Of a DNA stretch of 64,000 bases, positions 21,300 through 59,878 are shown piece by piece. The stretch covers positions 78,996 through 142,995 of the forward strand of contig NW_002476416.1 in NCBI RefSeq assembly GCF_000189635.1. Reading direction: 5' to 3'. This DNA is from Tetrahymena thermophila SB210. Lineage: Eukaryota; Ciliophora; Oligohymenophorea; Hymenostomatida; Tetrahymenidae. Below the pieces are notes generated by a model. That model saw only the letters and a list, made by a program, of their open reading frames with translations, was not told the DNA's origin and did no database searches. Each line of letters starts with the position of its first letter. The stretch's first letter is position 1. A program made the position numbers and the translations under genes.

Positions 21300-23100
21300 T
21301 TATGAAATTATGTATAAAAATAATGATTTACTTTATTTTTAATTATAACTGAAGATTTTGTGTTTTATTACGAATGGTAAAAAAATATTCTAAATGAAAA
21401 TTTTTTAACAAAATAAATCAAATATGATAATGCACTAATAGTGTTTGAGGTTTGAGATGAATATTATTTAAATCTTTCATATATAAACATTCTTTTTTAT
21501 TTAATAAATATTGCTTATAAAACAAAATATTTAAAATTTTTATATTAACATATATTTTTAGTGAGTTAATGCCCTTTTCAAATAAAATAGAAATTTTGCT
21601 GATAACATTATTAAAATGCAAATAATTTAATTTAAATAATAAAACAAATGTGTATACAAATAAATATGTTTTTTAAAAAGAAATATAATACCAAAATATC
21701 CTTTAATTTGGAATATTATCCTATAAAATACAATAACCTAATAATAATCTTTTTTTCAAAAATTTTAAATAATTTTTATATAAATAATTTATTTTATACA
21801 TACAGATCTATAAGCATAAAAATAACAAAATCCATTTTCATCTTCTATAAATGCATCAAGAATACTGTCTAAAATGAATTAATGCATACTAAAAATACTT
21901 AAAATATATTTATATAATTCATATTATTGAATTTATTGTGTTAAATAAACCTCGATAATTGATAATAAAATTTATTTTTTTTAGCATTTATTCTTAATTT
22001 AATTAATTGAAAAAATCTACTGAATGTAAATCACTTTTTTTCTATAAAATTTAAAAAAAAGTGTTGAAAGTTTTATCAGGAATATGATTTTCGTTAAAAA
22101 TATCATTTTAATTTTAAACTATCCTAAATGATAAAAATTACTTAAAATGATTTATTTAAATGAAATAAATATCTCAAAATATTATTAGACAATCAAAATA
22201 TAATTGCTGCTCTATAATAGCTATATATAAAACCAGTAAAGATATAAAAAATCATAAAGTTTTATAGAAAGTTTATTTAATTAGAGTCTATTTGATTGAT
22301 TGATCAAAAGCATGAATTTAATTTAACAAATTCGAATATAAATATAAAATTCTATTTTAAGAATCTCAAGCTTTTTTCAGTTCATTAGCTGATAATAGAG
22401 TGCTTTTGTAGATAAATTAAGTCATTAGAAATTTATATTAAACTCTAACTTTAATATCTAAAGAAACAAGTAGATCATAATTTAAATATTTTTCCTAAAT
22501 TAAAATATATATTCATACATACACAAAGAAAATAGAGTCAAAAATTGAACAGTAAAATTTAAGTTTCAATATCTTGTTTTATAAAAGTGAGTATGATATG
22601 TATTACAAAATAAAAATTAATTTTTGCTAAATTATTATCAGAAATTACAAAATGTTACAATCTATTATTTTATTTGAGTAAATACGTTAAAAATTGTTCA
22701 AAATTTTATTTCATAACTGCAATTACTAATTAATTCTGACAATAAACTTTCTACTTGAAATAGAATTTTATAGTTAATCTAAAATGATGAAATATAGATC
22801 TGATAAATTTAATCTAATGATCTTTTAAATGCTTCTTCTATATTTAAAATCTAAAAATAACAATATTTATATCCTCAATCTATATTTTCAGTTATATTTA
22901 TCGAATCTAATTTAATGCATATTTTTAAATATTTAAGGTTTATAATTTAATGTATTAAGTATGGAAAGTAGTTTTATTAATAAAATTATATTTTTCTATA
23001 AACAAAATTACAATTTAAGATAAACAAAAAAGAAAATTGGTTAAATTTTTTCTTCAACTTATTTAATTTTCTTACTGAACTCAAAAATAAATTAGGCTTA
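21300..23100. repeat. Array spacer module, copy 1
   Basis: First copy of the spacer repeated through the protease array. Landmarks shared with the other copies are a block near 21696 (AAAATATCCTTTAATTTG), a TTGATTGATCAAAA block near 22292, the GTATGATATGTATTA block near 22591 and the TTTTTAAATATTTGAGG-like block near 22923. It lies directly upstream of protease gene 1. No coding frame in it is conserved between copies, so it is treated as noncoding. Confidence 0.75.
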
Positions 23101-23235
23101 CAAAAACATTCCCTATTCCAAATTGAACCTTATCACTCTTTATATACTTAGACATTTTTGCTCAAAACATTAAAGAATAAAAAAAATAAAATACAAAAAA
23201 AAAACTAAAAATAAAACTAAAACTTTAAATAAAGT
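23101..23235 (+). promoter_or_regulatory. Conserved protease promoter block, gene 1
   Basis: This 135-base block is conserved upstream of every intact protease gene: an ATTCCAAATTGAA box, then CTTTATATACTTAGACATTTT about 95 bases before the ATG, then an A-rich run into the start codon. TTTATATAC is a TATA-like element. Conservation well beyond the spacer average suggests promoter plus 5' leader (inference). Confidence 0.6.
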
Positions 23236-24237
23236 ATGAATAGATTTATCCTTTTGAGTATTATCATGCTCATGCCTATTTGTTTGACTTAAGATATAAG
23301 TGTAGAAAAACTCCTTGCTTATAATAGATGGTCAAGCTAAAATCAAAGAGTGTATCTGAATGAAGATGAAAAACTATTTAGACAAATGGTTTTCTTTGAG
23401 AACTTGTAAAAGATTAAGGAACATAATAGTAATCCTAACAATACCTATTCTATTGATGTTAACTAATTCTCAGATATGACTTAAGAAGAATTTACTGAAA
23501 AAATTCTTATGAAATAGGATTTGGTTGACCATCAAATAAAAGATATTGGTTAATAGGCTACCAATAATAATGATAATAAGGAAATGAAAGCATCAAATCT
23601 TGCTATCGCTGCTTCTATAGACTGGAGAACAAAAGGTGCTGTAACTACGGTTAAGAATTAAGGTAGTTGTGGTTCATGCTGGAGTTTCTCTGCAGCTGGC
23701 TTAATGGAGTCATTTAACTTCATTTCAAACAAAGCTTTAGTTGATTTTTCTGAGCAATAACTCGTTGATTGTGTCATCCCTGCAAACGGTTACTCCTCTT
23801 AAGGATGTAACGGAGGATGGCCTGTTTAATGTCTTGATTATGCCTCCAAAGTAGGTATCACTACCCTATAGAGCTATCCATATGTTGCAATTTAAAAGAA
23901 GTGTGCTGTGACTGGTACAAATAACGGGTTTAAGCCTAAAAAGTGGATTTAAATTCCTAACACTTCGAACGATTTAAAAAGTGCTTTGAATTTCTCTCCT
24001 GTTTCTGTTCTTGTTGATGCTTCTACTTGGGGCCAATATAAGTCTGGAATTTACAATGGATGTAACTAATCTAATATTAGATTAAACCATGCTGTATTAG
24101 CTGTTGGCTATGACTAACAAGGTAATTGGATCGTTAAAAATTCTTGGAGCACTAGTTGGGGTGAAAATGGCTATATTAGACTTGCTCCAAACAACACATG
24201 CGGTATATTAAGCTATAATCTTTAAGTTACTGCATGA
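23236..24237 (+). CDS. Secreted cathepsin L-like cysteine protease 1
   Basis: Intronless, 333 residues. A signal peptide ([14 protein letters not shown]) precedes an I29-type propeptide with an ERFNIN-like helix ([16 protein letters not shown]) and then the C1A papain domain starting near IDWRTKGAV. Catalytic residues are Cys148 in CGSCWSF, His285 in [10 protein letters not shown] and Asn302 in KNSW. The oxyanion-hole Gln142 is encoded by TAA. Structural cysteines are kept (CGSC, DCVIP, GCNGG, NGC and NTCGIL). It should be a secreted or lysosome/phagosome-targeted zymogen activated by removal of the propeptide. This is the most diverged copy of the array and the only one separated from the rest by unrelated genes (25-29.6 kb), so it may be the oldest member. 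Confidence 0.95.
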
Positions 24238-57355: not shown

Positions 57356-58366
57356 ATGAATAAATTGATCCTTTTGAGTATTATCATGCTCATGCCTCTC
57401 TGCTTGGCTCAAAATATAAACGTAGAAAAACTTCTTGCTTATAATTAATGGTCAAGCTAAAATCAAAGGGTTTATCTGAATGAACATGAAAAACTATTTA
57501 GACAAATGGTTTTCTTTGAGAACTTTTAAAAGATTTAGGAACATAACAGTGATCCTAATAACACCTATTCTGTCCATTTAAACTAATTCTCAGATATGAC
57601 TAAAGAAGAATTTGCTGAAAAAATTCTTATGAAATCTGATTTGGTTGACCATTTAATGAAAGGAATCAGTTAAGAGGCAACTCATAATGATACTAATAAT
57701 AACGAAACTTAATTGAGTTCAAATAGCCTTACTTTAGCTGATTCAATAGACTGGAGAACAAAAGGTGCTGTAACATCAGTTAAGAATTAAGGTGGTTGTG
57801 GTTCATGCTGGAGTTTCTCTGCAGCTGCAGTAATGGAGTCATTTAACTTCATTTAAAACAAAGCTTTAGTTGATTTTTCTGAGTAATAACTTGTTGACTG
57901 TGTCATCCCTGCAAATGGTTACAACTCTTATGGATGTAATGGAGGATGGCCTGTTTAATGTCTGGATTATGCCTCCAAAGTAGGTATTACTACCCTAGAC
58001 AAGTATCCCTATGTTGCAGTTTAGAAAAATTGTAATGTGACTGGCACAGATAATGGCTTTAAGCCTAAAAGCTGGATTTAAATTCCTAACACTTCTAATG
58101 ACTTAAAAAGTGCTTTGAATTTTTCTCCTGTTTCTGTTCTTGTTGATGCTTCCACTTGGGGTAATTATTATTCTGGAATTTTCAACGGATGTGATTAAAC
58201 TCATATTAGCCTTAATCATGCTGTATTAGCTGTTGGCTATGACTAACAAGGAAACTGGATTATTAAAAATTCTTGGAGTACTTATTGGGGTGAAAATGGC
58301 TTTATGAGACTTGCTCCTAACAACACATGCGGTATCTTAAGCTATAATCTTTAAGTTACTGCTTGA
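57356..58366 (+). CDS. Secreted cathepsin L-like cysteine protease 8
   Basis: Intronless, 336 residues. Signal peptide, I29 propeptide with the [17 protein letters not shown] helix, and C1A domain. Catalytic Cys151 (CGSCWSF), His288 ([10 protein letters not shown]) and Asn305 ([10 protein letters not shown]). Structural cysteines complete ([28 protein letters not shown]). It shares QEHNSDPNN and KSWIQIPN with protease 5. Last member of the array in this window. Confidence 0.95.
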
Positions 58367-59878
58367 AAAATATGGATAATCTATTATAATTAAAATATAT
58401 TATTCGTATAAACTATTATTTTATATAAAATAGTCATTCAAATATTAAGATTCGATTAATTTTAAAAACAAAAATTTATTTAAATTAACATTAAATTTAT
58501 AAATATTAAAAAATAATAATTAATATTTCAAAATAACTTGATAAAAAATAAAAAAGTAAATTAATTTTATAAAAAAAATTCAAAAAAAGCTAACTACAAA
58601 ATTATTTAATATAAACTTATTCATTAAAAATAACTTCCTAGTTAATCAAAGTTTCTTTATATTAAAACTTCTTACTAAGATTCACTTGGTTTTAATTTAT
58701 TTTAAGGCTTTTAAATAATAATTTTTAAAAATTTTCTCTAGGGACTTGATTAAGAGGTTATTTTAATTTTCCAAGATCATTTTTTATTTTTTTGATTTTC
58801 TAAAGCATATTTTAAATTAAAATTAATAAAATTTGACTAGATACTGTATATGCTGTAATTAAGGTGCATTAATTTCTTAAAAAAATATTTTGAATACACC
58901 TTAATTAACCATAGATTTTTATTAGCTAATAAGAATTAAGAAGCCATTAATTACTATGTGTAATCCCTAATATATATATATGTTACCAACTTAAAGCTAA
59001 CAACATATATTTACTCATCATAAATAGCTCTAAAATTTATATAGCTTGCAATAATAATTTAACATATAGATGCGAATAAAATGATGTTTAAAAGCATTTA
59101 ATATAAAAAGGGAATATTTTTAAAATTATTACAAATTAAACTGTTTAAATAATAATTTGAATGTGCATTCATTTTGTGTTTTAGATTATAATTCTATCTT
59201 TAAATTTATTTAAAATGCAATTATAAGTTGATTTTTTTTTAGTTTTCTTTCTAACCTAAAATCTAGAAAATTTAAATAAAATCAATAAAAATATTAATTA
59301 ATTAGCTTTAGCTTTTTGAGAATTAAAAAGAGTTTTTACAAAAAGAATTATAAACGGATGCTCTTTATTTGAAATTAAAAATTTTATAAGTTATTTTTGA
59401 TCAAATTGGTTTTTTATAAATAATTATTTAGATAATCTATAAAAAAATTTTATTTTTAAGAGTGATAAAAATTTTTAATTTTATTAATCTAGTCAAATTC
59501 GTTGGATTAAAGTTATACATTTAGAAAGAAACTTGCTATAAGCCTCAAAAATTCTATTAATTTGATAAAGTTAAATTATTGTTAGAACTGGTTTTTTTTG
59601 TAAAATTAATGTACAATTTTAGTAGAGTTTGAATTTTATTTAGTTTTAAAAAATAAGCAATAAATAGCATAAAAAATTTCAATTTATAATTATAACGTTT
59701 TAATATAATATTGATTGAAGGTTTGTTTGTTTGTTTTAGTGAGAGATTTTATATATTATATTTATTGGTAGAAGTGCTTTGAAATAAGCATAAACAAATG
59801 TGAATAGGAAAGGTAGGATGAATAAAAATATACTAAATAAGTTTTATATATAAATAAATAACTTATTTTAATGATATA
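58367..59878. other. 3' flank of protease 8 and array end
   Basis: Shared 3' flank to about 58560. An 11-bp perfect inverted repeat follows: TAATTAAGGTG (58856-58866) with CACCTTAATTA (58897-58907), preceded by GCTGTAATTAA. The remainder to 59878 is AT-rich without spacer homology or genes; the protease array ends here. Confidence 0.55.

Follow-up and report, generated by a model that had tools for sequence, protein, structure and literature searches.

Does a tandem row of protease genes interspersed with dead copies record a separate gene death for each dead copy, or were dead units themselves multiplied? We examined this question in a window of 64,000 nucleotides (the whole stretch of DNA analysed), in which a cysteine protease array occupies 21.4-58.9 kb. 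This segment is about the left half of a ~84-kb tandem array of cathepsin-L-like (C1A) protease genes, located towards the end of a chromosome in a macronuclear genome of Tetrahymena type. The first-pass annotation had confined the array to ~37 kb with an end at 58.56 kb; on the contig of the window (C131) it continues past the window, resumes at 66.6 kb and ends at 105.4 kb, ~18 kb from a chromosome end with GGGGTT. The repeating unit is composed of a ~1.7-2 kb upstream spacer and one intronless gene. Across the whole C131 array there are 26 spacers, 7 of them gene-less, along with 14 intact genes and 5 pseudogenes; close to half of the units have no working gene. A second contig (C369) carries two further genes. 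The six complete papain-family genes, two pseudogenes and ~12 copies of one spacer announced by the first-pass annotation were all recovered in the window (six uninterrupted genes, both pseudogenes with 5' deletions and frame breaks, 12 full spacer copies plus one ~295-bp fragment). Its single clean deletion scar became four gene-less spacers, and the row is broken by two unrelated stretches (a 581-aa ORF and an LRR-like fragment) and a 100-N gap.

The genes were read in ciliate code 6, with TGA as the sole stop; the standard genetic code was rejected, as it yields one ORF of at least 120 aa against 225 under code 6. The six window genes have 333-337 codons and are intronless and uninterrupted. 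All genes, pseudogenes, spacer cores and fragments, gene-less spacers and inserted segments described below for the window lie on the + strand. The first gene of the array, g1 (23236..24237, 333 aa), follows spacer core U1 (22026..23214), and g2 (33950..34957, 335 aa) follows U3 (32768..33936). The latter gene has a divergent cleft (67 F, 68 S, 133 Y and 160 E in papain numbering) and has lost the Cys of the conserved NGC motif to replacement. The spacer fragment U4 lies at 35357..35651. Gene g3 (42674..43684, 336 aa), whose upstream region lacks ~230 bp, follows U7 (41784..42660); g4 (47954..48961, 335 aa), of a B-type unit, follows U9 (46860..47938), directly before which lies a partial tandem spacer copy of ~429 bp (46431-46859). 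The last two genes in the window are g5 (52224..53237, 337 aa), after U11 (51403..52206), and g6 (57356..58366, 336 aa), after U13 (56180..57340), our reference copy of the spacer.

Both genes scanned with Pfam, out of the six, contain Peptidase_C1 (PF00112, E 7.7e-59 and 3.9e-57) and the Inhibitor_I29 propeptide (PF08246, E 1.6e-13 and 6.1e-15), that is, the I29/ERFNIN region of cathepsin L-like enzymes, and a match to procaricain was obtained (E 1.2e-55). In g6 a hydrophobic N-terminus is followed by the I29 propeptide at residues 29-86 and Peptidase_C1 at 128-330. The catalytic Gln19, Cys25, His159 and Asn175 are invariant in 14 of 14 C131 array genes, and in a gene tree the array, C369 and C188 genes form one clade with 100% support. 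Judged by sequence, the array genes are members of peptidase family C1A, of the papain/cathepsin L type; the hydrophobic N-terminus is present, and secretion and proteolytic activity are putative.

Gene-bearing units match the reference unit at 72-91% over 2.3-3.3 kb, against about 57-61% over 1 kb for matches in AT-rich background, while the old gene-less unit U10 stands above background in one of two comparisons (73%) but not in the other (59%). The spacer is restricted to C131 and C369, where 34 of its 36 matches lie (the remaining two are ~143 bp at 70-71%), and on these counts we rejected it as a dispersed repeat. A search of the whole window for RNA genes in the spacer gave no Rfam hit at the gathering score and none with ARAGORN (bacterial settings).

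The dead units of the window retain variable parts of the unit. Pseudogene psi1 (39095..39495, A-type), after spacer core U5 (38151..39099), has a 5' deletion and frame breaks, and its 3' part is replaced by the next spacer. That spacer, U6 (39509..40301), precedes psi2 (40298..41072, B-type, nearest to g4), which has a frame break and is missing the sequence just upstream as well as its first ~76 codons. The gene-less spacers are U2 (C-type, core 31390..32149 in a stretch of about 30.8-32.2 kb), U8 (A-type, core 44834..45916, stretch about 44.0-45.9 kb), in which by eye at most ~16 nt of gene remain, U10 (C-type, core 49878..50798, stretch about 49.0-50.8 kb) and U12 (core 54367..55373, stretch about 53.2-55.37 kb). 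The last ends in a clean scar at ~55373, where everything from about -130 through the stop codon is missing and, by eye, the join shares TGAA. As these lesions show, genes were evidently lost through deletions and frameshifts.

Alignment of units with one another indicates how such losses spread. The three A-B blocks (U5-U6, U8-U9 and U16-U17) are pairwise 94-95% identical over 3.0-4.9 kb, and in the first of them neither unit has a working gene any longer. The pair U2-U3 matches the inverted C4-U19 at 93%, the alignment running through the gene-less junction, and U10-U11 aligns with U21-U22a at 85%. These alignments show that units were copied in blocks of at least two, sometimes a dead and a live unit together. 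The two inserted neighbors behave likewise. The 581-aa ORF (X, 25951..27696) recurs behind the last gene of the array (105761-107485, 72% at the amino acid level) and, as a fragment with stops, after g8 (72860-73138); the segment that by eye is LRR-like (Y, 36706..38037) has a second copy at 73910-75234 (87.5%), and both Y copies immediately precede an A-B block. Both neighbors have been duplicated as well. Outside the protease genes, Pfam named 2 of 18 ORFs (malate synthase and scramblase). Taken together, a tandem C1A array near a chromosome end that is copied in blocks, recombines, and loses genes by deletion and frameshift is very probably the right explanation of the locus as a whole.

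Gene and spacer trees are mutually incompatible (AU p 1.9e-8 and 1.3e-7, 17 units having both parts); gene and spacer histories differ, and therefore units have recombined. The spacer of g3 is closest in sequence to U12, and the gene itself to the g6/g11 group. The strong incongruence of the trees speaks for a further proposal, in which dead and live units swap sequence and pseudogenes serve as donors, resulting in new variants of the substrate cleft. The dN/dS analysis suggested by the first-pass annotation was run on the 14 intact C131 genes (the g5 CDS beginning one codon after the annotated start codon) and gave a median pairwise value of 0.56 (91 pairs) and a one-ratio omega of 0.448. The cleft-site lists follow what we take to be the papain subsites and were fixed after inspection of the alignment; hence a strict list, the C188 array and a published S2 list were added. 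In the C131 array the cleft sites have a pN/pS of 1.04-1.12, versus 0.54-0.57 for its remaining mature positions (p 0.04 and 0.004 by permutation), and the separate C188 array (nine reading frames, one with a short N-terminus of 293 aa) follows the same trend (0.73-0.87 versus 0.39-0.41, p 0.04 and 0.03). The raised ratios agree with the donor proposal; however, the test pooled exposed and buried sites and the cleft is itself exposed, relaxed constraint would likewise account for a ratio near 1, and the S2 list of PMC3014944 (seven residues), taken alone, gives p 0.07. We regard exchange with pseudogene donors as improbable. Since the cleft varies and the catalytic residues are fixed, the array may serve to broaden substrate range.

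Our preferred reading, a block-copied array, bears directly on the number of gene deaths. The first-pass annotation had described relics in every stage of decay, and a quite improbable alternative holds that each dead unit lost its gene separately, giving a true series of stages. In its favor, six groups of dead units can be distinguished (A-type, C-type, psi2, the U12 scar, psi4 and psi5). However, psi1 and psi3 (77.2 kb) have an identical 5' deletion junction, and two clades of the spacer tree, with 100% support each, take in eight of the twelve dead units: an A-type clade of three and a C-type clade of five gene-less spacers, two pairs of which align across their junctions. "Every stage of decay" is on this account misleading; birth-and-death of a secreted-type C1A family stood, and the independent series is poorly supported. 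The spacer tree has 28 tips; the U22 stretch holds two spacers and was split into U22a and U22. On this corrected set only, the dead/live label changes 6 times versus a shuffled mean of 9.3 (p 0.02); with U22 unsplit and one spacer omitted, p is 0.14. Repeated gene loss at a single weak spot is conceivable for the C-type units: right of the join U2 is unlike U10 and U21, and the U2/U10 alignment there is partly gappy and weak. The two clades fit about two ancestral deaths that were followed by copying in multi-unit blocks, and about six deaths would account for all twelve dead units. The number of dead copies then overstates the number of deaths, which is relevant to pseudogene-based estimates of loss rates and to ciliate protease gene counts from gapped assemblies.

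Unit order and number are incomplete because of two assembly gaps (100 N at 30660..30759 and 1932 N starting at 64001, beyond the window) and the separate contig with its two genes. These same features lend some weight to the idea that misassembly of similar repeats produced the copies or the gene losses. Such an artefact is unlikely, and strongly so: the closest long alignments between copies reach 94-95% (although single ~340-bp bins reach 99%), C369 aligns with C131 at below 97% overall in every alignment longer than 150 bp (9,000 of 34,715 C369 bases compared), the window lesions sit in continuous sequence, and the shared lesions match the spacer tree. The same comparison, of 9,000 C369 bases with C131, led us to reject C369 as a second haplotype. 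Programmed elimination, in which a germline (micronuclear) array retains the genes and each macronuclear development removes them as internal eliminated sequences, so that the somatic array would show fewer proteases than the germline keeps, would fit the U12 scar and its short shared sequence but fits less well with shared, partial and frame-broken relics, and we give it hardly any credence.

In the block-copied array, copying would proceed by unequal homologous recombination between spacers, which may be the recombination sites because they are the longest shared tracts. Dead units would persist by hitch-hiking in blocks and by remaining usable as recombination tracts. The surviving genes may encode secreted zymogens for food digestion, with a conserved catalytic core and a substrate cleft that is drifting or diversifying. 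The tandem duplicates and pseudogenes share a common founder, as in a birth-and-death gene family. Although units recombine, dS among the 14 genes is 0.06-0.37, and they are not the near-identical copies of concerted evolution. The array is a case of birth-and-death evolution with block duplication, a well-known mode of gene family growth and shrinkage.

Several known systems resemble parts of this array. In Tetrahymena thermophila, TtCysP1-6 are described as secreted cathepsin-type enzymes with an ERFNIN propeptide and many paralogues, of which the 30 most similar to TtCysP1 are listed (PMC1403784), and by description they resemble the array genes, whose own secretion is putative; the abstract and sections 7 and 8 of that study contain no analysis of an array, spacers or pseudogenes. 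Ten Tetrahymena species have tandem, species-specific clusters of young genes (PMC6564038), a tandem expansion as here but centered on LRR genes, the largest strict cluster being 17 LRR genes in T. pyriformis; the searched text of that source has "protease" a single time and neither "peptidase" nor "pseudogene". The secreted cathepsin L family of Fasciola, a parasitic worm, has grown through duplication and varies at the cleft and in its surroundings (PMC3014944), and the passages of that source drawn on here describe no comparable anatomy of spacers and dead units. The mouse Mup cluster is built of tandem cassettes that each pair a live gene with a pseudogene, with birth-and-death at the periphery (PMC2441477), and as described there it shares with the Tetrahymena array block duplication that pairs live and dead genes. 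The Mup cassettes are 80 kb long, resemble one another at ~98% and are linked to endogenous retroviruses (PMC2441477), whereas the Tetrahymena blocks are about 5 kb long and 85-95% alike, and the tract they share is the spacer belonging to the gene itself.

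In the window, the array holds six uninterrupted papain-family genes (g1-g6) and two pseudogenes, at 39.1 and 40.3 kb, and a genome search located 12 full copies of the repeated spacer, which is visible in a self-comparison of the window; these counts bear out the first-pass annotation, which had put the spacer at about twelve copies. It had reported one deletion scar, where we find instead four spacers that carry no gene (units U2, U8, U10 and U12). All six gene products have a hydrophobic stretch at the N-terminus, and Pfam recognised the I29 propeptide as well as the C1 domain in both of the two window genes scanned. 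Among relatives with a solved structure, procaricain ranks best for g6. Comparison of the adjoining stretches showed that the array exceeds the window and runs on to window coordinate 105.4 kb. Altogether C131, the contig of the window, carries 26 spacer cores and one fragment, 14 intact genes (g1-g14), five pseudogenes (39.1, 40.3, 77.2, 86.3-85.3 on the minus strand, and 98.8 kb) and seven gene-less spacers (U2, U8, U10, U12, C4, U21 and U22a). Between 81 and 89 kb a gene, a pseudogene and a gene-less spacer lie in inverted orientation.

The window corresponds to C131:78,996-142,995 in an assembly of 101 Mb and 445 contigs. Since the window ORFs use TGA alone as stop codon and telomere repeats (CCCCAA/GGGGTT) are present, the sequence points to a macronuclear genome of the Tetrahymena type; the far end of C131 consists of GGGGTT repeats about 18 kb beyond the array. 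Across the genome PF00112 gives 138 matching stretches, where one gene may give several rows. Malate synthase sequence lies at the left edge of the window (299-1288, minus strand; PF01274, PF20656), and a C1 protease of a different sort, apparently with introns, lies upstream of the array at window coordinates of about -22.1 to -20.6 kb. A single-frame scramblase gene (59879-60886, minus strand; PF03803, E 2.1e-34) splits the array between g6 and g7, and 1932 N at window coordinates 64001-65932 adjoin the right edge of the window, within the array.

Most dead units, that is, gene-less or pseudogene units, fall into groups. Three A-type dead units (U5, U8 and U16) group together in the spacer tree at 100% support. 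After each of them comes a B-type unit (U6, U9 and U17), and the B-type clade is likewise supported at 100%. Pairwise alignments of these two-unit A-B blocks reach 94-95%; the second gene is intact in U8-U9 and U16-U17, while both units of U5-U6 are now dead. Because the pseudogenes psi1 and psi3 share a 5' deletion junction, the A-type gene had most likely been disrupted by the time the block was duplicated. A further clade, again with 100% support, unites five C-type gene-less spacers; the alignment of U2-U3 with the inverted C4-U19 (93%) crosses the junction, and U10-U11 aligns with U21-U22a at 85%. The single deaths are psi2, U12, psi4 and psi5. Mapped onto a spacer tree of 28 tips, 12 of them dead and 16 live, the dead/live label requires 6 changes vs 9.3 when shuffled (p 0.02); the uncorrected 27-tip set gave p 0.14. 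The 12 dead units thus trace to about six deaths; U2/C4 and U10/U21 may have a single join in common.

The lesions themselves differ. Read by eye, the U12 scar fuses a point some 130 bp upstream of the ATG to the region of the stop codon, TGAA being shared at the join. The pseudogene psi2 lacks the first ~76 codons and adjoining upstream sequence, and psi1 has lost in turn its start, its reading frame and its 3' portion. That breakpoints vary between groups of dead units speaks for ordinary deletion as the probable source. The gene g3 is intact yet lacks about 230 bp of upstream region; its spacer is nearest to U12 and its gene to the g6/g11 group. Among the 17 units with both parts, the gene and spacer trees are mutually incompatible by the AU test (p 1.9e-8 and 1.3e-7), indicating recombination among units.

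DNA neighbouring the units was copied as well, in two segments. X, a 581-aa ORF, lies near each end of the array (window 25951-27696, after g1, and 105761-107485, after the last gene, g14; 72% amino acid identity), with a fragment after g8. Its start carries B-box-like Cys/His residues by eye, a Pfam search of X returned no match, and its family is large (75 match rows). Y, LRR-like by eye, stands ahead of two A-B blocks but not of the third, its two copies agreeing at 87.5% over 1.35 kb; similar DNA lies left of the window, at -14 to -11.7 kb.

Two short dispersed elements are also found here. One is about 155 bp long, is predicted to fold into a strong hairpin (z -2.7) and follows g4 (49139-49296) and g9 (80766-80922). 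Across the genome it gives at least 41 match rows, distributed over both strands (40 scored among 127 and 120 candidates); thirteen other copies align to it with a common sharp left end, and Rfam gave no family at gathering score. It is a candidate short mobile element or structured non-coding element. The other, of about 82 bp, lies where gene-less U8 meets U9 (45940-46021) and has a partial copy at 29270-29320; with 40 of 47 candidates scored, it gives at least 44 match rows across the genome.

Related copies occur on other contigs of the assembly. C369 carries two further uninterrupted genes, whose units match the nearest C131 units at 94% and 93% over 2.8-3.3 kb, whose proteins match g6 at 83-85% and whose spacers match U13 at 95% and 89%; therefore, the array, or its family, is incompletely placed. 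A second array (C188:240334-278080) comprises nine related C1 frames, arranged in repeating units of its own (25 best self-alignments of 1.3-3.6 kb, 82-94%), and the architecture is therefore also found away from the C131 locus. A tree was built from 82 C1 domains (48 single stretches, 20 from three blocks and the 14 array genes, with the remaining PF00112 rows omitted). In it the array, C369 and C188 form one clade with 100% support; neither monophyly of the C131 set nor that of C131 plus C369 was recovered in this tree.

The dN/dS comparison suggested in the first-pass annotation, run on the 14 array genes, gave a median of 0.56 over 91 pairs (range 0.25-0.97), and the one-ratio omega was 0.448. 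Q19, C25, H159 and N175 are invariant in 14/14 array genes and 9/9 C188 frames. In the array, pN/pS at cleft-lining sites was 1.12 vs 0.54 at the remaining positions of the mature enzyme for 23 sites (p 0.004), and 1.04 vs 0.57 for 16 sites (p 0.04); the C188 cleft gave 0.87 and 0.73 vs 0.39 and 0.41 (p 0.03 and 0.04), and the seven published S2 sites taken alone gave p 0.07. The cleft ratios support a change in substrate choice or a relaxation of constraint at these sites, and leave positive selection unproven.

Among the top-listed papers, no title or abstract opening described this array, which does not establish that it is new to the literature. Many paralogues of secreted cysteine proteases are described for T. 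thermophila (PMC1403784), as is tandem expansion in Tetrahymena species (PMC6564038). In the mouse Mup cluster, as outlined in PMC2441477, each cassette contains a live gene and a copied pseudogene. The array is a real, well-preserved instance of a kind already known.
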